From: Sinanaerobacter chloroacetimidivorans
GTDB lineage: Bacteria > Bacillota > Clostridia > Peptostreptococcales > Anaerovoracaceae
DNA length: 64,000 bases
NCBI RefSeq assembly: GCF_018128545.1
Contig: NZ_JAGSND010000006.1
Coordinates: 124,001 to 188,000, forward strand
Direction of reading: 5' to 3'
Shown here: positions 20,285 through 63,452 of the stretch, piece after piece
Layout: each line of letters opens with the position of its first letter
Position numbering within the stretch: the stretch's first letter is position 1
Position numbers and translations under genes: made by a program
Notes under the pieces: generated by a model
The model's database searches: none
What the model saw: only the letters and a program-made list of their open reading frames with translations
Told to the model about the DNA's origin: nothing

Positions 20285-20527
20285 TTGAATAGTTCTGGAT
20301 CTAAACCAAATAATGAATTTGAAGAACCTTACGTTGGTATGCCCATAGCCAATATGAATCGTTCCGTTCAAAAGAAGTCCTATTGTACCGCTGTTAACAG
20401 CTGTCCTCTAGCCATGGCCTATGTACCCTGGCAGTGCTGGGAACAACCTTATGAGCCAAATGTAGCATTAAAGCGGGGAACCATTTTCCCCTGTCTGGAT
20501 TTACCGTGGGAGGGGTGGAGATATTAA
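20285..20527 (+). CDS. cotJA: Spore coat protein CotJA
   Basis: An 80-residue protein with the CotJA core: CPLAMAYVPWQCWEQPYEPN-like aromatic segment, GTIFPCLDLPWEGW end. It starts at a TTG with AAAGGAG 10 bases upstream. First gene of the cotJABC spore coat operon, expressed in the mother cell during sporulation in Bacillus. It is one base from cotJB. Confidence 0.92.
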   Translation: MNSSGSKPNNEFEEPYVGMPIANMNRSVQKKSYCTAVNSCPLAMAYVPWQCWEQPYEPNVALKRGTIFPCLDLPWEGWRY

Positions 20528-20528
20528 A

Positions 20529-20804
20529 ATGATGGATCGTCGAAGTGAACTGTTTCAAAAAATTCAGATGGTCAGTTTTGTACTGGTTGACACCAATCTT
20601 TATCTCGATACGCACCCAGATGACAGAGCGGCTCTGAATTATTATCATAAATACCGAACATTAATGGATCAAATGGTACAGGAGTATACGGATAATTATG
20701 GGCCCTTAACTCCCTATACTGTAAAATCAGCAGATATGTGGACCTGGATTGATCAGCCATGGCCATGGGAAAAGGAGGCAAATAGCTATGTGGAGTTACG
20801 ATAA
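20529..20804 (+). CDS. cotJB: Spore coat protein CotJB
   Basis: A 91-residue protein with the CotJB pattern (FQKIQMVSFVLVDTNLYLDTHP, ALNYYHKYRTLMDQ, YGPLTPYTV, WPWEKEANSYVE). It overlaps the start of cotJC by 17 bases. Second gene of the operon; small coat component needed with CotJA and CotJC. Confidence 0.93.
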   Translation: MMDRRSELFQKIQMVSFVLVDTNLYLDTHPDDRAALNYYHKYRTLMDQMVQEYTDNYGPLTPYTVKSADMWTWIDQPWPWEKEANSYVELR

Positions 20805-20898
20805 AAAATTGCAGTACCCCGTCAAAATTGCATGTCCCAATCCTGCAATAGCTAAGATTATCATTACACAATATGGAGGACCAAATGGCTTTCAGTGA
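20788..20898 (+). pseudogene. cotJC: 5' fragment of split cotJC
   Basis: The ATG at 20788 (AGGAGG 9 bases upstream) begins MWSYDKKLQYPVKIACPNP and continues to QYGGP at the recombination core, then runs into element sequence and stops at a TGA (36 codons). The first 29-31 residues match the N-terminus of CotJC; the rest of the protein is found 3.6 kb away. This is an interrupted gene rather than a decayed one: both halves are intact and in matching frame. Confidence 0.93.
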
Positions 20899-20926
20899 TG
20901 ATTTTCAGAAATTATCCGATAGGATT

Positions 20927-21328
20927 CTATTCTTTCCCCGGCAGCTTTTCGCCGCATTTGTTACAATAAACAAAACTTTCTTCTACTTCCGTTCCGCAAT
21001 AGGGACAGAAAGCACTGTTATGTAATTGCCTTGAGATCGTAACCTCAGATTTATTGCTTTTTCTAAATGTTTCATTGAGTGGATCCGGTTCTTCTTCCCC
21101 ATCTGTAATGTCATAAACGGAATAGCGATTTTCACCGGTGGCATTTCTAAAATGATAAACCGCCTGGACGATACCCATTACGATAAAAATGATACCAAAT
21201 AATGCAAAAAATATAGGCGCCCCCATGGACATTGCAAAAAACGTCCATATGATTCCAAAAATCGCGGCGGCAATGGATCCGATCCCCCCCATCATGGACG
21301 GTGCTCTTCCCGGCTTAATGCTTTTCAT
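20927..21328 (-). CDS. Zinc-ribbon membrane protein, element-borne
   Basis: A 133-residue protein with an N-terminal KPGRAPSMMGG motif, two membrane helices (about 15-55), a polar linker and a C-terminal zinc ribbon (CPYCGTEVEESFVYCNKCG: two CxxC pairs). Proteins of this layout are common in Clostridia; function unknown. It lies 45 bases inside the left junction of the cotJC element, on the strand opposite to cotJC. Confidence 0.75.
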   Translation of the reverse strand: MKSIKPGRAPSMMGGIGSIAAAIFGIIWTFFAMSMGAPIFFALFGIIFIVMGIVQAVYHFRNATGENRYSVYDITDGEEEPDPLNETFRKSNKSEVTISRQLHNSAFCPYCGTEVEESFVYCNKCGEKLPGKE

Positions 21329-21509
21329 AAATGATCCCCCTGTGTTTTTTATTCTTTTCCATTATATCAGGTGCATCAAAAAAAAGTCACCCTTTTATGA
21401 AGCGGTAAAATGTTCTTTTTGCGCTGAACATTTTACCGCTTATATGGATAACTCTTTCTTTTGCATTCTCTTAATTTTCATAATCTGGTGCCGGAAAGCA
21501 GTATCTGGA

Positions 21510-21917
21510 TCACCTTTTGGAACAGCTTAAGAAGAAACTGTTTACTAAGGATATCAGAGAAACCAACGTGCCCATCGCAATCATTGCCGGGGCTCGCAAT
21601 GAACTGCAGGTACACTCCGTACTGCAGCTGCCGTCACAGAACCCAATTATAATTGTAGCCATTAAGGCTGTCAGAATTCCCAGCATAACCATTCCGACAC
21701 TGATTCCCCATCTTGCTTGATTTGATTCCGAGGCGATGAAAAAAACAGCCATCAACAGAATCATAACTCCGATAATAAACTCTGCTTTCGCTGCCGTCGG
21801 GCATTTCATACCCATGTCCATACAATGTTCGCAGGTTCTAAGTATAAAATTAGGAACCACGGAGATCATTGCACCTAGAATTCCCAGGATAACACCCCAA
21901 ATTATTTTACCAGTCAA
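21510..21917 (-). CDS. DUF4418 family membrane protein
   Basis: A 135-residue protein with four hydrophobic helices and the conserved Cys-containing segment TCEHCMDMGMKCPTAA between helices 1 and 2, plus CDGSCSTECTC later, as in DUF4418. The start is a TTG at 21917 with AGGAGG 7 bases upstream; an ATG at 21947 has no site. Function unknown; the paired cysteines suggest redox or metal binding. It lies in the cotJC element. Confidence 0.8.
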   Translation of the reverse strand: MTGKIIWGVILGILGAMISVVPNFILRTCEHCMDMGMKCPTAAKAEFIIGVMILLMAVFFIASESNQARWGISVGMVMLGILTALMATIIIGFCDGSCSTECTCSSLRAPAMIAMGTLVSLISLVNSFFLSCSKR

Positions 21918-22010
21918 TGATAACCCTCCTATCAAATAGTTTTTCATTTACAAACGCTACTTCATTTTATGCGGACAAAGGTATGGATATGAACATGTTG
22001 TCCATGGTAT

Positions 22011-22211
22011 TTATTCAATCCCGTATTTTTTTTTCGTTTCGAAAATTCTTCGGGACTTATACTCGTTGTATGTACGTTCCTGACTTCTGATAGCCCTGAT
22101 CAGCGCTCTTTCCTCTTCAAGGCTTTTTGAGTAAGCTTTGCCAATTTCACACGTGCTGTGACAGGCAGGATACCTATTCTTGCAGTCTAAACAGGGTGAC
22201 TTACTTTTCAT
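22011..22211 (-). CDS. Small Cys-rich charged protein, element-borne
   Basis: A 66-residue protein: an N-terminal four-Cys cluster (CLDCKNRYPACHSTC) that could bind zinc, then a charged helix (SLEEERALIRAIRSQERTY). Similar small proteins occur in phages and integrative elements. AAAGGAG lies 8 bases before the ATG at 22211. Its size and position in a serine-recombinase element make it a possible recombination directionality factor, which is inference only. Confidence 0.65.
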   Translation of the reverse strand: MKSKSPCLDCKNRYPACHSTCEIGKAYSKSLEEERALIRAIRSQERTYNEYKSRRIFETKKKYGIE

Positions 22212-22315
22212 TGTCATCTCTCCTTTGTGTTTAAAATATTATGTAAACCATCGATTGCCTCTATAAAAAATTTTTCAACAGACTTCAGATATTATAATTT
22301 TAAGGATTTCGATAT

Positions 22316-22509
22316 TTTTCCACAAATTTTTCAAAATCGCATACAATTTTATCCAAGGCTCTGTGTGGATAACTTTACCCCTCATAAGAGGTGAAATTTC
22401 AACATATTTTTTAAATACAAAATGATTTTTCCAACACTTATCCACAGGCAAATGCATTTTACGCAGAAACCTTCCCTATACTTTCCACATTTCAACTGTT
22501 TTTTCCACA
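22316..22509. promoter_or_regulatory. Cluster of DnaA-box-like 9-mers
   Basis: Perfect TTATCCACA at 22438-22446 (plus) and 22364-22372 (minus, read as TGTGGATAA). Near matches: TTTTCCACA 22316-22324 and 22501-22509, CTTTCCACA 22481-22489, TTATCCAAG 22349-22357. The surrounding 200 bases are very AT-rich. Six sites in under 200 bases is origin-like density, yet the cluster lies in the cotJC element and no dnaA gene is in the window. Confidence 0.7.
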
Positions 22510-22640
22510 TTGGGTTTTATGAAATGCACCCATCGGCAAATGCCGCATATTATATAGTAAAATCACCTAATCGATCAACTCCAACAGAACTTCAGAAATG
22601 AAGTGATAACCTTAATCGTAACGATTCATTAGTTTTCGAT

Positions 22641-22665
22641 GCGCCCGCTGTAGCGGGCGCTTTTT
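22641..22665 (+). terminator. Strong intrinsic terminator
   Basis: GCGCCCGC and GCGGGCGC form an 8-bp GC stem (loop TGTA) followed by TTTTT. No coding sequence on the plus strand lies upstream for more than 1.7 kb, so the transcript it ends is likely a small non-coding RNA or a leader. Confidence 0.88.
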
Positions 22666-22998
22666 GATTCCAAAATTGGATCCAAATTTTAAGGCTGCTC
22701 CTGCTGCTGTGTGCTGACGTAACCTGCCGCAGTCATAAATTTATCTGTGAGGTTTTGGGATACCCGATCTTTCTCCTTGTCACACAGCTGATCCCACCTT
22801 TTCTCTGCTCTTTTTTCTTCCGAAACTGTTACAAAAAAAACCTCAGCAGATACCTCCTTTTTTTTCATCCCTCCGCCTCCTTTCTAAATCCTATGAAGGG
22901 AAACGGATTTCTATTACAGGTCTTTTCTTTTACATTTCTCAGTAAAATATTAGGAGCATCTCAAAGCGCATATTGAAAAATCTTGAAAGGGGGTCAAC

Positions 22999-24438
22999 AT
23001 GAGGCAAGCAGCTGTTTATATTCGTGTTTCTACGGAAGAACAGACAGAGTACTCTCCTGACGCCCAGTTAAAGGCCGTTAGGGAATACGCTGAGAAGAAC
23101 GACTTACAGATCCTGCCGGAGCATATCTATATAGACGAGGGCATTAGCGGAAAAAGTACGAAAAACCGGGCTGCTTTCAACCAAATGATCGGAAAGGCAA
23201 AGGAGAAGCCAAAGCCCTTTGACGCGATTCTGTTATGGAAATTTTCCCGTTTTGCAAGAAACCGGGAGGACAGCATCGTTTATAAGTCCATGCTTCGCAG
23301 ACAGCTAGATATTGAAGTTATTTCCGTTACCGAAAAGATCGGTGATGACAAAATATCGGTACTGATAGAAGCCTTTATCGAGGCCATGGATGAATACTAC
23401 AGCATCAATCTTGCCGAAGAGGTAAAGAAGGGAATGACAGAAAAAGCATCCAGAGGCGAATTTCAAGCCGCGCCGCCCTTCGGATACCGGAAGCCGGCAG
23501 GCTGTCCCCTTCAAGTGGCTCCGGAGGAGGCTCCTTATGTGCGTTATATATTTGAGCGATTCTTAAGCGGAACGAGTTGTTTTGTCATTGCCAAAAATCT
23601 GAATTCCATGGGAATTCGGACGAAACGAGGAAACAAATTTGAAAGACGAAATATCGAATACATTTTAAATAATCCCGTATATACAGGTTATGTAAGATGG
23701 ACGCCAGGCGGAAAAACGTTAAGCAAACGGATTTTTAACAGTCCTGAAACCTTAGTCATAAAATCAGATCATATGCCGATTATAGAGGAGCCTTTGTTTC
23801 ATGCAGTGGAGGAAAAGCTGAAAAAAAGAACACGCTCGCAAGGGACAAAAGGAAGGCCCGAGGACAGGAAACATTATTTATCGGGTTTTATCAAGTGCGG
23901 AGCCTGTGGTTCTACTCTGGCGTACAGCCGCTCCCACGACGGCTTTCAATGTACCGGCTATTCACGAGGCTTATGCAGTATCTCACACTATATCCAAAGA
24001 CAAAGAATAGAAAATGCTGTCCTGCAGGTTCTCGACGGTATTTCCTATACCGGAAATTATAGAAGAAAAGACCACGGCAGCAGCTGCAGTGCAAGCGAAA
24101 AAAAAGAGCTCATGGAGAAAGAAATCACAGCTTTGGAAAAAATGCTGGAGCGTGCAAGAGAAGCATATTTATCGGAGATCGACTCCCTCATGGAATATGA
24201 AAAAATAAAAGAGACCCTTCACAGAAAAATTCAGAAGATAAAAACTGCTCAGGCGGAACTTGGGCTCCAACCTTTCCAGCCCTGCTCCGATCCATCCATA
24301 TCCGAGTCTTCAAAAATGAGCACCATTCTTACCGGTGCAGATTCTGATGACACAAAGGCAGCCGCCCTTGCTGAAATTGTGGAAAAGATCATCTATCAGC
24401 GAGCAAAGGATAAAATCATGGTTTACTTGTACCTGTAA
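22999..24438 (+). CDS. Large serine site-specific recombinase
   Basis: A 479-residue integrase with an N-terminal resolvase domain (catalytic Ser in YIRVSTEEQ, Arg residues in LLWKFSRFARN), a recombinase domain (FGYRKPAG, NPVYTGYVRW), a zinc ribbon (CGACG...CTGY...C) and a coiled-coil tail (about 365-440). AAAGGGGGT lies before the ATG. It is the same type as SpoIVCA and SprA, which excise sporulation elements. It ends 34 bases from the right core, in the same direction as cotJC. It presumably excises the element in the mother cell. Confidence 0.94.
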   Translation: MRQAAVYIRVSTEEQTEYSPDAQLKAVREYAEKNDLQILPEHIYIDEGISGKSTKNRAAFNQMIGKAKEKPKPFDAILLWKFSRFARNREDSIVYKSMLRRQLDIEVISVTEKIGDDKISVLIEAFIEAMDEYYSINLAEEVKKGMTEKASRGEFQAAPPFGYRKPAGCPLQVAPEEAPYVRYIFERFLSGTSCFVIAKNLNSMGIRTKRGNKFERRNIEYILNNPVYTGYVRWTPGGKTLSKRIFNSPETLVIKSDHMPIIEEPLFHAVEEKLKKRTRSQGTKGRPEDRKHYLSGFIKCGACGSTLAYSRSHDGFQCTGYSRGLCSISHYIQRQRIENAVLQVLDGISYTGNYRRKDHGSSCSASEKKELMEKEITALEKMLERAREAYLSEIDSLMEYEKIKETLHRKIQKIKTAQAELGLQPFQPCSDPSISESSKMSTILTGADSDDTKAAALAEIVEKIIYQRAKDKIMVYLYL

Positions 24439-24472
24439 TACCACAGTTCCTTATCATAGGATATTGCCATTT

Positions 24473-24979
24473 GGAGGACCGGATGGTGAATTGGCCGCAT
24501 CTATGCGTTATTTATCCCAGCGATATGCGATGCCTTACAAAGAGGCCGTAGGCGTACTGAACGATGTTGGCACAGAAGAGCTTGCTCATTTCGAAATGAT
24601 TGGAGCAATCGTACATCAATTGACAAGAGATATGACCATGGAACAAATCAAAGAATCAGGCTTTGATACCTATTTTGTGGATCATACCGCAGGAATATGG
24701 CCACAGGCTGCTTCCGGCATGCCGTTTTCTTCAACATTCTTCCAATCCAAAGGCGACCCTATTACCGACTTGGTTGAAGATATGGCTGCAGAGCAAAAAG
24801 CAAGAACAACTTATGATAACATCCTTCGTCTTGTAGACGATCCGGATGTCAGAGATCCCATCAAATTCCTGCGTGAACGCGAGGTCGTTCATTTCCAGAG
24901 GTTCGGCGAAGCCTTAAGGGTTGTCCAGGATCATCTGGATTCCAGGAATTTCTATGCTTTCAATCCGGCTTTTAAATAA
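24473..24979 (+). pseudogene. cotJC: 3' fragment of split cotJC
   Basis: From the right core the frame GGPDGELAASMRYLSQRYAMP runs 168 codons to a TAA with the full remaining CotJC sequence, a manganese-catalase-like ferritin fold (GTEELAHFEMIGAIVHQLT, GMPFSSTFFQSKGDP, DMAAEQKARTTYDNI, REREVVHFQRFGEAL, each with likely metal-binding Glu/His). It has no start codon of its own that would give a complete protein. After excision it joins the 29-codon 5' part in frame. Spore coat function, perhaps peroxide detoxification. Confidence 0.92.
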
Positions 24980-31327: not shown

Positions 31328-32053
31328 ATGAAACAATATCAAGATAACTTTCAGAGATATGAAAAGAAATATATGTTAAGCAAAGAGCAGCATCAAGACT
31401 TCATGACTCAATTGAAAGGGGCCGTCACGAAAGATGACTACGGTCTGCACACCATCGGCAATATCTATTTCGACACCGAGAATTACGACTTGATTCGTAC
31501 CTCTATCGAAAAACCCATTTACAAAGAGAAGTTGAGATTACGGAGCTACGGAGTTCCAAAGCGGGAAGATAAAGTTTTTGTGGAAATAAAAAAGAAGTTT
31601 AAAGGTGTTGTTTACAAACGAAGAGCAGCACTTTCATTAGGGGCGGCCCATCGCTACCTTTTGCTGGGGGAAAAGCCGGAAAAATCAAATCAAATTCTTC
31701 AGGAAATCGACTGGTTCATGAAAATGTATCAGCCCGATCCCAAAGTATTTATTGCTTATGACAGAACCGCTTTCTTTGGCAATGATGATCCAAATCTGCG
31801 GATTACCTTTGATGAAAATATCCGATTTCGGGAATCCTGCCTGGATCTCTCAAAAGGGAACTGGGGCGAACCCCTGTTGAATTCAGGAAAAACCCTGATG
31901 GAGATTAAAATTCCCGGTGTCATGCCGCTCTGGCTGAGCCATATACTGGCAGACTTGGAGATTTTCCCGACGTCTTATTCAAAATACGGAACCTGTTATA
32001 AAGAGCATCTCTTTCGTCAGATGCTGGCAAAAGGAGGAATGAACTGTGCTTAA
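31328..32053 (+). CDS. VTC-domain polyphosphate polymerase
   Basis: A 241-residue protein with the VTC catalytic tunnel fold: RYEKKYMLSKEQ at the start, paired basic and acidic strands (EKLRLRSYG, VFVEIKKKF, VYKRRA), RITFDENIRF and TLMEIKIPG. In yeast this fold makes polyphosphate from ATP. It has no SPX domain, as usual in bacteria. AGGAGGAG precedes the ATG. It overlaps the DUF4956 membrane protein by 8 bases, a common pairing. Confidence 0.9.
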   Translation: MKQYQDNFQRYEKKYMLSKEQHQDFMTQLKGAVTKDDYGLHTIGNIYFDTENYDLIRTSIEKPIYKEKLRLRSYGVPKREDKVFVEIKKKFKGVVYKRRAALSLGAAHRYLLLGEKPEKSNQILQEIDWFMKMYQPDPKVFIAYDRTAFFGNDDPNLRITFDENIRFRESCLDLSKGNWGEPLLNSGKTLMEIKIPGVMPLWLSHILADLEIFPTSYSKYGTCYKEHLFRQMLAKGGMNCA

Positions 32054-32723
32054 TAGTCTAACGAATGTAACGGCATCCGGCTCCGTAACACTGGAAAGTC
32101 TGCTGATTTGTACCTTGGCTTCCTTGATTCTGGGACTGGGAGTGGCTTTGATCTATATGTACCGAAATCTATACAGTAAAAGTTTTGTAGTAACTCTGGC
32201 ATTGCTGCCCGCCATGGTGCAAATCGTCATTATGCTTGTAAACGGAAATCTTGGCGCAGGTGTCGCCGTGATGGGCGCCTTCAGTCTGGTCCGGTTTCGA
32301 TCCATACCCGGCAGCGCAAGAGAAATCAGCAGCATCTTCTTCGCAATGGCAATAGGTCTTGCCACGGGCATGGGCTATGTGGCAATAGCAGTGCTCTTTC
32401 TGATTCTGATAGGCATTATGAATCTCCTGCTGAACACCCTTCGGTTTGGAGAGCAAAAGGAAGCAGAAAAAGAATTGAAAATAACCATACCCGAAAATCT
32501 TGATTACACCGGGATCTTTGATGATCTCTTTGATAAGTATACAAAAAAAGCTGAGCTGATTCGGGTGAAAACTACGAATATGGGCAGTCTGTATGAACTG
32601 CATTACCATGTCGTAACGAGAAATTCCGACATAGAAAAAAGCTTCCTGGACGAACTTCGGTGCCGGAATGGGAACTTAAACATCATCTGCGGAAGAATTC
32701 CTCTCCGACGTGATGAACTATAA
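32046..32723 (+). CDS. DUF4956 membrane protein
   Basis: A 225-residue protein with about four membrane helices in the first 135 residues (LGLGVALIYMYRNLYSK, MGAFSLVRFRSIPGSAREIS, a DUF4956 hallmark) and a cytosolic C-terminal ferredoxin-like part (about 140-225). Partner of VTC-domain polymerases; suggested to help export or use of polyphosphate, which is not proven. The start overlaps the upstream gene. Confidence 0.87.
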   Translation: MLNSLTNVTASGSVTLESLLICTLASLILGLGVALIYMYRNLYSKSFVVTLALLPAMVQIVIMLVNGNLGAGVAVMGAFSLVRFRSIPGSAREISSIFFAMAIGLATGMGYVAIAVLFLILIGIMNLLLNTLRFGEQKEAEKELKITIPENLDYTGIFDDLFDKYTKKAELIRVKTTNMGSLYELHYHVVTRNSDIEKSFLDELRCRNGNLNIICGRIPLRRDEL

Positions 32724-32787
32724 AAAAAGTAAAGGGATTATTCCATCAAATACATGATGGATTGTAAAGAGAAGGAGAAATAGGAAG

Positions 32788-34851
32788 ATGAAAGAAGATA
32801 GAAAACATCCATTTATTGAAAAAAGGCAGCTGATTTCTTTTCTGTTGGCATTGGCAATGGTGCTCAGCATTTTTACAGGATGTAAAGCGGATGCAGATGC
32901 AGGAACCGTTACAGGAGCAGCCTTGGACACCCTGACAGGAATTGAGGTTGAATACAGTGAGGAAGATATGGATGGCAGCTGGGATCCTGCAGACGCAACT
33001 TTGATTACTATGGATGGCAGCACTTTTACCGTTGATGGCAGCGGAACATCTGTTGACGGCAGCAAGCTTACCATAACGGCGGCAGGGACTTACGCCTTCA
33101 GCGGTACCTTAACAGATGGACAGATCTTGGTAGATGCCGGAAAAAAAGACACCGTACGAATCGTTCTAAACGGTGCGGAAATCTCTTGCTCTGACAACGC
33201 AGGAATCTACTCAATGCAATCGAAAAAAACCATCATTACACTGGCAGAAGGAACTGTCAATTCAGTATCTGACGGAAGTGCCTATACCTATGAAAATGGT
33301 GCTGATGAACCGGATGCTGCCATTTTTGGCAAAGATGATCTTACCGTAAACGGATCCGGGGCACTGACGGTTCACGGGAATTATAACAATGGTATCACTT
33401 CAAAAGATGATTTGGTGATCACTGGAGGTGAAATAAACCTTACGGCATTCAATGACGGCTTACGGGGCAGAGATTCCGTAGCGATTAACGGAGGAGCCTT
33501 TACCATAACGGCAAATGGGGACGGCATACAATCCAACAATGACGAAGATCCCAGCAAGGGTTGGATTTCTCTGGATGGAGGAGCCTTTACGATCATTGCA
33601 GGAAATGACGGGGTCCAGGCAGAAACATTGCTCCAGGTTACGGACGGGACCTTCGGCATCACCACCGGAGGAGGGAGCGCAAATGCCAGCACCGATAAAA
33701 ATAAAAACCCGCGTCCTCAATGGGGCCAGTGGGATACACAAACAACGGCTACTGCTGTAACGGAAGAAGATACTGCTTCCGCAAAGGGGCTTAAATCAAG
33801 TGTCGGAATATTGCTAAAGGGCGGTGACTTTTCCATAGATTCCTCAGATGATTCTATTCATTCAAACGGGGATGTTCTTATCAAAGCGGGAACCCTTACC
33901 CTGACTTCAGGCGATGACGGTATCCATGCAGATGCTGCCCTGACCCTGGACGGCGGAACCCTGGACATCACCAAATCCTACGAAGGGTTGGAAGGCGCCT
34001 CAATCACCGTAAACGGCGGAACCCTGCATCTAATAGCTTCAGATGATGGATTGAATGCCGCAGGCGGAGCGGACAGCTCCTCCCAGGGCGAAAGACCGGG
34101 AGAAAACAGCTTTGCTGCTGACGCAGCTTGCTTTATCCGTATCACGGGCGGTAATTTATCCATTGATGCAGCGGGCGACGGAATCGACTCCAACGGATCT
34201 CTTTATATCGACGGCGGTACCATACAGGTAAGCGGTCCTACGGATAACGGCAACGGGCCTATAGATTACACGGATACCTTTGAGATAACAGGAGGAATCC
34301 TGGCAATTGCGGGAAGCTCCGGGATGGCCCAATCCCCCAGTGATACCTCCGCACAAAACTCCATACTGGTTTATTATACGTCGGTTCAAGCAGCAGGAAC
34401 CATGGTGACACTGGCAGACGAAAGCGGAAATTCAATCTTTTCCTTTACCCCCTTAAAGGAATATCAGTCCATTCTCATTAGTTCTCCGGACCTGGCAGAA
34501 GAAAAAACCTACAGCCTTTATACCGGAGGAACCAACACCGGCGAGAAATCGGACGGCCTCATCATCGGGGGAAGCTTTTCAGGCGGAACAAAGCTTACGG
34601 AAATTACTATAACGGATACAGCAACCCGAATTTCACAGGACGGAACCGCGGTAACCGGCGGCATGGGTGGGGCCGGCGGAATGAACGGAGGGCCCGGCGG
34701 TCAGCGGTCCTTCGAGCAGAGCGGACAACAGCCGCCCTTGGGAGAAGACGGCGGGCAGGCACCCTCAGGAACAGGACGTCCCCAACGTCCTTCCGGAGAA
34801 AACGGCCAGATGCCTCCTTCCGCCGGTGCAGACTCAACTCAACAAAACTAA
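32788..34851 (+). CDS. Cthe_2159-like beta-helix lipoprotein
   Basis: A 687-residue protein with a lipoprotein signal peptide (lipobox IFTGC, lipid Cys32), many short Gly/Asp turns typical of a right-handed parallel beta-helix (repeats of the form DGIQSNND, DGIHADAALTLDGG, GNLSIDAAGDGIDSNG), and a Gly/Gln/Pro-rich disordered tail of about 60 residues. This matches the Cthe_2159 carbohydrate-binding domain family, which binds acidic polysaccharides and calcium. It is the last gene of the VTC-DUF4956 operon, so it is surface-exposed and likely co-regulated. Confidence 0.85.
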   Translation: MKEDRKHPFIEKRQLISFLLALAMVLSIFTGCKADADAGTVTGAALDTLTGIEVEYSEEDMDGSWDPADATLITMDGSTFTVDGSGTSVDGSKLTITAAGTYAFSGTLTDGQILVDAGKKDTVRIVLNGAEISCSDNAGIYSMQSKKTIITLAEGTVNSVSDGSAYTYENGADEPDAAIFGKDDLTVNGSGALTVHGNYNNGITSKDDLVITGGEINLTAFNDGLRGRDSVAINGGAFTITANGDGIQSNNDEDPSKGWISLDGGAFTIIAGNDGVQAETLLQVTDGTFGITTGGGSANASTDKNKNPRPQWGQWDTQTTATAVTEEDTASAKGLKSSVGILLKGGDFSIDSSDDSIHSNGDVLIKAGTLTLTSGDDGIHADAALTLDGGTLDITKSYEGLEGASITVNGGTLHLIASDDGLNAAGGADSSSQGERPGENSFAADAACFIRITGGNLSIDAAGDGIDSNGSLYIDGGTIQVSGPTDNGNGPIDYTDTFEITGGILAIAGSSGMAQSPSDTSAQNSILVYYTSVQAAGTMVTLADESGNSIFSFTPLKEYQSILISSPDLAEEKTYSLYTGGTNTGEKSDGLIIGGSFSGGTKLTEITITDTATRISQDGTAVTGGMGGAGGMNGGPGGQRSFEQSGQQPPLGEDGGQAPSGTGRPQRPSGENGQMPPSAGADSTQQN

Positions 34852-62840: not shown

Positions 62841-63452
62841 ATGTTCGATTATAGAAAGTCAGCCACTTTACTCAGCTTTATTATTTTTTCCGTTATCACC
62901 TTTATCGTGATGGCAAATGATACGTTGTTATTCGATACGGTGGTACGGGAGCAAATTTATGAGATGCGAAATGATGGGCTTACCTTTGTGCTGAGAACCA
63001 TCACCTACATGGGAAATAAGCAGACTATTTCCGTGATATGCATCCTGCTCCTGCTATTTTTCCCAAAACGAAAGCTGATAGCAATACCTTTGACCATTTC
63101 CGCAATTATTTCCTCAACTCTTCAGACTGCATTGAAAATAACCTTTCACAGGGCGCGGCCTGATTTGGCCCTGCATTTGATTGATCAGGGAGGCTTCAGT
63201 TATCCAAGCGGACATTCCATGACAGTACTGGTATTCTATGGCATGATGATTCTGCTTTGCCGGCGATATATAAAAGACAGGACAAAGGCGAATATTGCCA
63301 CTGTCCTGCTGTCTTGCATGATCTTTCTCATTGGTTTCAGTCGTATTTATCTGGGCGTTCATTATCCTACCGACGTCCTTGGCGGCTGGTCTATTGGTTT
63401 TTGCCTTTTGCTGATATTAAAATCGGCTATTGGTACTTTGCATAGCAAATAA
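62841..63452 (+). CDS. PAP2-family membrane phosphatase
   Basis: A 203-residue protein with about six membrane helices and the three PAP2 motifs: [18 protein letters not shown] and [16 protein letters not shown]. Likely dephosphorylates a lipid phosphate such as phosphatidic acid or undecaprenyl pyrophosphate. Divergent from plsC, its possible lipid-pathway partner. Its 3' end overlaps the convergent chemotaxis gene by 36 bases. Confidence 0.92.

Follow-up and report, generated by a model that had tools for sequence, protein, structure and literature searches.

A large serine recombinase element splitting cotJC in Sinanaerobacter chloroacetimidivorans: a candidate skin-like intervening element at a recurrently targeted sporulation gene

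The cotJC locus and its intervening element

The window analysed here is a 64,000-nucleotide stretch of the genome of Sinanaerobacter chloroacetimidivorans (contig NZ_JAGSND010000006.1, positions 124,001 to 188,000 of the forward strand; coordinates are counted from its first letter), in which a 3,598-bp unit encoding a large serine recombinase (LSR) separates codon 32 of cotJC, the last gene of a cotJA-cotJB-cotJC operon, from the rest of the gene. We refer to the genome holding the window as G000, and use further G and L handles for the surveyed genomes and loci. The operon opens with cotJA (20285..20527, +; TTG start; PF11007, E=1e-19) and cotJB (20529..20804, +; PF12652, E=1e-31), followed by the cotJC 5' exon (20788..20882, +; codons 1-32, MWSYDKKLQYPVKIACPNPAIAKIIITQYGGP), which ends with the attL core, while the 3' exon (24472..24979, +; GGPDGELAASMRYL...FNPAFK*) runs from the second copy of the core to the stop codon. 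Both exons are free of stops and frameshifts and match adjoining positions (1-34 and 30-197, respectively) of the manganese catalase profile (PF05067, Mn_catalase). Joined at the core TGGAGGACC, they give an in-frame gene of 197 codons, whose product aligns without gaps to the uninterrupted CotJC of the nearest relatives (88% identity with that of G123) and retains all residues that are invariant in an eight-sequence CotJC alignment (A1); the profile match and the conserved residues place the joined protein in the CotJC/manganese catalase family. The original prediction, made from the bare sequence, held that cotJC is split by a 3.6-kb serine-recombinase element and that its intact halves share a core and join in frame into a 197-codon CotJC. 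The exons read directly, the complete LSR, the core present in both halves and the joined arrangement in intact relatives all bear this out. The concern that a second intact cotJC might serve the coat fell away as well, as G000, searched by place, holds none.

The LSR (22999..24438, +; 479 aa) is a full three-domain protein with resolvase, recombinase and zinc-ribbon parts (PF00239, PF07508, PF13408; PHROG 95 integrase, E=4e-104), and its C-terminus lies about 40 nt from attR. The two TGGAGGACC cores (attL, 20874..20882, +; attR, 24472..24480, +) stand 3,598 bp apart. The 18-nt repeat around them (83% identity) would not be remarkable alone, as about two sites of such quality are expected and several similar pairs were listed; we regard it as non-random because it falls on homologous in-frame codons of one gene, the 197-aa join keeps the invariant residues, the attP has dyad symmetry and intact relatives show the joined arrangement. 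When attP is rebuilt from the element ends, its sequence, GCCATTTGG-AGGA-CCAAATGGC, forms an almost perfect inverted repeat with the G^G of the core at its centre. Over 30 junctions the dyad symmetry of rebuilt attP sites around the core reached a combined p of 3e-30, whereas the attB sites were not symmetric (p 0.5), and this pairing of a symmetric attP with an asymmetric attB is expected of serine integrases acting on a host coding sequence.

Recurrence of split cotJC across genomes

The joined CotJC of the window was used as query against about 900 distinct genomes (drawn from the family, the order and the class), and a gene was counted as split when its exons lay on separate contigs or at a clear distance from each other within a contig; the figures are our own count from the result tables and a lower bound. 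Split cotJC genes were found in at least 14 of the 84 family genomes with a match, in about 15 genomes of the order draw and in at least 54 of 253 matching genomes of the class draw, with at least 80 genomes carrying the signature overall. Apparent splits in G598, G717, G771, G789 and G837 turned out to be contiguous genes and were excluded from the count. A second pass over 80 candidates recovered complementary exons in most, and base-level reading covered 53 junctions in 43 genomes (automatic calls that were mis-cut in G466, G518, G634, G773, G680 site B, G727 site B and G558 site B were left out as evidence of exact joining). Nearly all examined split genes rejoin to a full protein. The relatives supplied what the original prediction proposed to seek in them, namely uninterrupted cotJC genes (as in G123) and split ones beside a related LSR (the loci of clade A1, described below).

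The junctions fall at four recurring places in cotJC: site A, the one used in the window (codons 28-35, GGNGGNCC), site B (codons 57-68, GGNACNGAAGAA), site C (codons 134-136, GCAGCAGA) and site D (about codons 106-113). The GTEELAH and AAEQKAR motifs, on which sites B and C fall, hold metal ligands in ferritin-like folds. Two elements reside in a single cotJC in G206, G558, G665, G883, G693 and G849, and three in that of G047, whose four exons join into a 199-aa protein.

Fragmented assemblies were considered as the cause of partial cotJC matches and rejected, since many of the splits lie inside single-contig genomes (G120, G121, G206, G558, G570, G719, G727) and in 41 of 42 genomes with a split cotJC the ribosomal control gene rpsB is complete. 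For the window itself, an assembly artefact or contamination is hardly credible: although G000 was scored as 8.1% contaminated, a single contig carries cotJA, cotJB and both cotJC exons in the order of the operon, the geometry of the att sites is exact, and the signature recurs in these single-contig genomes with their control gene intact.

Several arrangements depart from the common pattern. In G706 (C1:225389, -, and 452986, +) and G069 (C1:2091090, -, and 1011468, +; loci L113, L112, L060 and L059) the exons are on opposite strands and a long way from each other. Recombination between their att sites would therefore invert a large chromosome segment rather than excise it, or else a rearrangement followed insertion. 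Fragments of cotJC 3' ends occur elsewhere in genomes with an intact cotJC, some of them nearby (L097, G122 C1:964000-983500; L066, G078; L103, G124), and are perhaps scars of elements that brought or rebuilt a 3' end. In the genus of G558 (C1:3114389-3115742; similarly G665 and G883; loci L104-L110) cotJC adjoins sigK, and in several species both genes are split by separate elements, sigK being whole in G558.

Selection on the split exons

The ratio of nonsynonymous to synonymous divergence (dN/dS) was 0.02-0.08 for split cotJC genes and 0.002-0.03 for intact pairs, which points to strong purifying selection on the former, of the same order as on the latter. In G665, G727 and G883 both insertions are common to all three genomes and the site-A LSRs are closely related; their exons, with a dS of 0.4-0.7 and a dN/dS of 0.05-0.08, have probably diverged while split and are still constrained. 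A gene that is never rejoined would not stay constrained in this way. For cotJC of G000 itself, purifying selection is an argument by analogy with these relatives.

Recombinases dedicated to target sites and prophages docking in cotJC

At nearly all junctions the C-terminus of the LSR abuts one exon and points at it, the gene being placed either on the 3' side along the direction of cotJC or on the 5' side against it. The original prediction had taken the position of the recombinase, on the right and reading the same way as cotJC, as a mark of a skin-like element; the placement is true of the window, but we rejected it as a diagnostic feature since relatives carry the LSR at either end. In a tree of 74 LSRs the proteins cluster according to their target site and not according to host. 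The window's clade, A1, holds the LSRs of G131, G047, G120, G357, G706, G453, G680, G775, G693, G804 and G767, together with that of an Oscillospiraceae metagenome-assembled genome (JAGAUA010000065.1), which has a cotJC 3' exon at the same codon as the window. Site A is also the target of a second clade; sites B and C are served by at least two clades and by one clade, respectively, and site D by two lineages.

A piece of CotJC is encoded on 61 of the viral contigs in IMG/VR (loci L145-L205); 54 of these begin at a junction site (18 at A, 33 at B, 2 at C and 1 at D), and an LSR lies directly beside the piece in 39. Judging from these contigs, cotJC is the attachment gene for many prophages, and CotJC pieces that mark prophage ends are easily misread as phage-encoded catalases. 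The closest phage integrase to the window's LSR (42%) is that of the complete phage genome PQ006094.1, the attP of which is without the GGAGGNCC core; relatives of the window's LSR were not found in IMG/VR by peptide pattern.

The element (20883..24471; 3,598 bp core to core) is itself far from a complete prophage. No phage structural, lysis or replication genes were found in it with PHROGs, where only the integrase matches well and the other open reading frames have no matches or weak ones to families of unknown function. Besides the LSR and the small p59 gene treated below, it encodes a 133-aa membrane protein with a zinc ribbon (20927..21328, -), a DUF4418 membrane protein (21510..21947, -; PF14387, E=7e-15; start perhaps the TTG at 21917, after AGGAGGG) preceded by a sigma-E-like promoter (21964..21992, -; TCATATC-N14-CATAAAAT), and a 68-aa Cys-rich small protein (22011..22217, -) for which no family was found. 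By this gene content we read it as a minimal intervening element, which may be a reduced descendant of a cotJC-docking prophage. Related genomes, G123 and G128 among them, have homologues of the zinc-ribbon membrane protein (52-62%; loci L086 7790-8194 and L079 12379-12837) that belong to no element and are encoded on the upstream side of the cotJ operon; the element may have captured this gene from a host.

The frequency with which prophages dock in cotJC lends some weight to an alternative in which the unit is an ordinary prophage remnant that has lost its cargo, cotJC being dead in this strain and coat function having no need of CotJC. CotJC has been reported as dispensable in Bacillus subtilis, and Clostridioides difficile cotCB and cotD mutants as showing no significant coat defect, according to the passages that cite this work in PMC11222575 and PMC12122855. 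We consider such a remnant improbable: the exons, att cores and LSR are all intact, with no stop or frameshift; the split exons of relatives have stayed under purifying selection long after insertion; nearly every split gene examined still restores the full protein; and p59 and the LSR were kept while other cargo was lost.

A candidate trigger of excision

Divergent from the recombinase lies p59 (22689..22868, -), which encodes a 59-aa candidate recombination directionality factor, with a sigma-E-like promoter in front of it (22888..22916, -; TAATAGA-N14-CATAGGAT). Its family has 14 members and is confined to loci that carry an LSR of clade A1: it occurs in 12 of 27 such loci, a good number of which are truncated, and in none of the 85 loci with another LSR (Fisher p 4e-9). 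The protein has no phage match, PHROG or Pfam family, and its AlphaFold model is a beta-hairpin plus helix (pLDDT 82). Although the single promoter site of the window is weak, the set is significant: sigma-E-type motifs stand before the p59 genes at a similar distance from the start codon, with a combined p of 3e-10 against shuffles and 5e-6 against control small open reading frames; they do not stand before the LSR genes (p 0.07). SpoIIID-like boxes overlap the -35 element in just 3 of 13 p59 promoters and were not used.

In the skin element of C. difficile the recombinase is made in all cells, and a 72-aa protein, CD1234, controlled by sigma-E and SpoIIID, limits excision to the mother cell (PMC5025042). 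Given this precedent of an LSR combined with a small sigma-E-controlled factor, p59 is the natural candidate for a CD1234-like role and may act as the directionality factor of the window's LSR. The LSR would then be present without being specific to sporulation, and p59, made under sigma-E, would make it excise instead of integrate, and this in no cell but the mother cell. During sporulation the element would be cut from the mother-cell chromosome, cotJC rejoined precisely at TGGAGGACC and the coat protein made, whereas the forespore would retain the element. We reason that cotJC may be a favoured site because it is needed only in a terminal cell and because its metal-site codons are conserved at the DNA level.

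Another reading is active lysogeny or a phase switch: the element would leave and re-enter at a low rate, whatever the cell, with cotJC as a neutral harbour that matters only in a doomed cell and with no sporulation signal involved. Such behaviour would fit LSR genes without a sigma-E-like promoter and related elements that are full prophages, from which excision at induction is expected; the yin element in Clostridium botulinum yabG exists as a growth-phase-dependent mixture (PMC10747680). We hold it to be somewhat less probable still than a dead remnant, as sigma-E-like motifs precede the p59 family, the sites of insertion cluster in a gene for sporulation, and the three elements in cotJC of G047 must be absent simultaneously for any product to be made.

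Weighing the evidence

The intact exons, the selection on the split exons of relatives, the complete LSR, the att pair with a symmetric attP, the sole cotJC and a candidate directionality factor whose promoter is of the mother-cell type support a skin-like, presumably excisable gene-intervening element at cotJC. We put a probability of about 0.8 on the reading that cotJC is interrupted by a minimal LSR element which is excised in the mother cell, through the LSR and a sigma-E-driven directionality factor, so that cotJC is rebuilt; excision, its confinement to the mother cell and the role of p59 are inferred from sequence. Several observations pull the other way. A search of IMG/VR for the exact attP string gave no match, so no free circle is seen there. 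The sigma-E motif was scored with weights that follow the general sigma-E consensus, and the site in front of p59 in the window is weak (p 0.01). The p59 protein has no match to a known directionality factor, and among solved structures none was found by sequence, while all matches by fold had E > 2. Between G000 and its nearest intact relatives dS is saturated, and post-insertion selection is seen in relatives with shared insertions and not in G000, whose CotJC is also slightly more diverged from outgroups than that of its relatives (0.75-0.78 versus 0.77-0.84).

Other split genes and wider implications

Two further genes of G000 are split in the same manner. On contig C12 a GH18 gene (5' exon 68697-69308, -; 3' exon 62887-63387, -; loci L033 and L214), which in our own reading is YaaH/SleL-like and cortex-hydrolase-like, has a 5.4-kb LSR element (LSR 63403-64977, -) inserted at the core GGACCCC and joins in frame as ...MTYEWGYTYGP|PMAVAP...; the element also carries a chemotaxis receptor gene. 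On contig C14 a PRK06851-family P-loop ATPase gene (5' exon ending near 31783, +; 3' exon from 37340, +; loci L044, L217 and L218) is split by a 5.5-kb LSR element (LSR 31805-33448, -), and its parts (..IDGTAPH / GTASHVVDPINPGAVDSI..) rejoin in frame.

Beyond the window, we think it probable, though with less assurance than for the locus itself, that cotJC is a class-wide, multi-site split gene, in which several unrelated LSR lineages are each dedicated to one of at least four short targets at conserved codons; that two or three elements are removed in the mother cell in some species; that p59 represents a new family of sigma-E-driven directionality factors, serving as trigger in the window's lineage; and that a genome may hold several split genes (here cotJC, the GH18 cortex-hydrolase-like gene and the PRK06851 ATPase). 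Our searches of the open-access literature brought up neither a split cotJC nor cotJC as an element target, and we regard as novel the target itself, the class-wide multi-site use of one gene, the presence of up to three elements per gene, the target-dedicated LSR clades and the p59 family.

To our knowledge, just a handful of genes are known to be reconstructed during the development of spore formers, most of them in a single strain or a few strains. One gene split in at least 80 genomes of a class, at four positions and by LSRs sorted by target, would turn an oddity into a testable rule, by which mobile elements and prophages dock safely in a terminal-cell gene, to be taken out by the mother cell in the manner of DNA introns. 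The rule predicts a family of directionality factors; the junctions provide many serine integrases with deduced attB/attP pairs; and annotations in which cotJC is missing, broken or phage-encoded will often conceal a split host gene.

Comparison with known systems

Intervening elements in sporulation genes are already known as skin, SPbeta (in spsM), vfbin, gin and yin (PMC5595907, PMC4191935, PMC10747680). The window element shares with skin, SPbeta and gin a sporulation gene interrupted with both parts intact, an encoded serine site-specific recombinase, and a short attL/attR core that restores the frame along with an inverted-repeat attP. It resembles the C. difficile skin element in sigK (CD1231 recombinase, CD1234 directionality factor) as an LSR element in a mother-cell sporulation gene, with a small (candidate) directionality factor, a proposed sigma-E-type control and in-frame rejoining; p59 is likened to CD1234, and the LSR to CD1231, by arrangement and control and not by orthology. 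It differs in its target and in its size of 3.6 kb without a phage-like gene set, and is not a skin element in the strict sense, as sigK is uninterrupted in G000 (C5:82629-83279). Skin-type splits of sigK, recovered in about 14 of 39 genomes searched, served as a positive control for the method.

With SPbeta of B. subtilis (SprA/SprB) it has in common a serine integrase and a small, here candidate, directionality protein, and a spore-surface gene rebuilt in the mother cell would be a further likeness; SPbeta, however, is a full active phage with another target in another group of organisms. The gin element in gerE of Bacillus cereus ATCC 10987 is likewise a non-phage element in a small sporulation gene, with an LSR plus a directionality factor (GirC/GirX in gin, a candidate here), but it measures 28.6 kb and has three recombinases and one target site; as a minimal non-phage element, that of the window stands nearer to gin (PMC5595907) than to a prophage. 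In yin (yabG, C. botulinum) and vfbin (spoVFB, B. weihenstephanensis) single sporulation genes are also interrupted by excisable elements (excision being presumed here), yet both are prophage-like and single reported cases, with no multi-site use of one gene. Finally, the attR of phi027 in C. difficile R20291 adjoins a CotJC-like gene (cotG, CDR20291_1465); although this 678-bp cotG is whole and lies unsplit downstream of attR (PMC11222575, PMC12122855), phi027 is the nearest case reported in the open-access literature.

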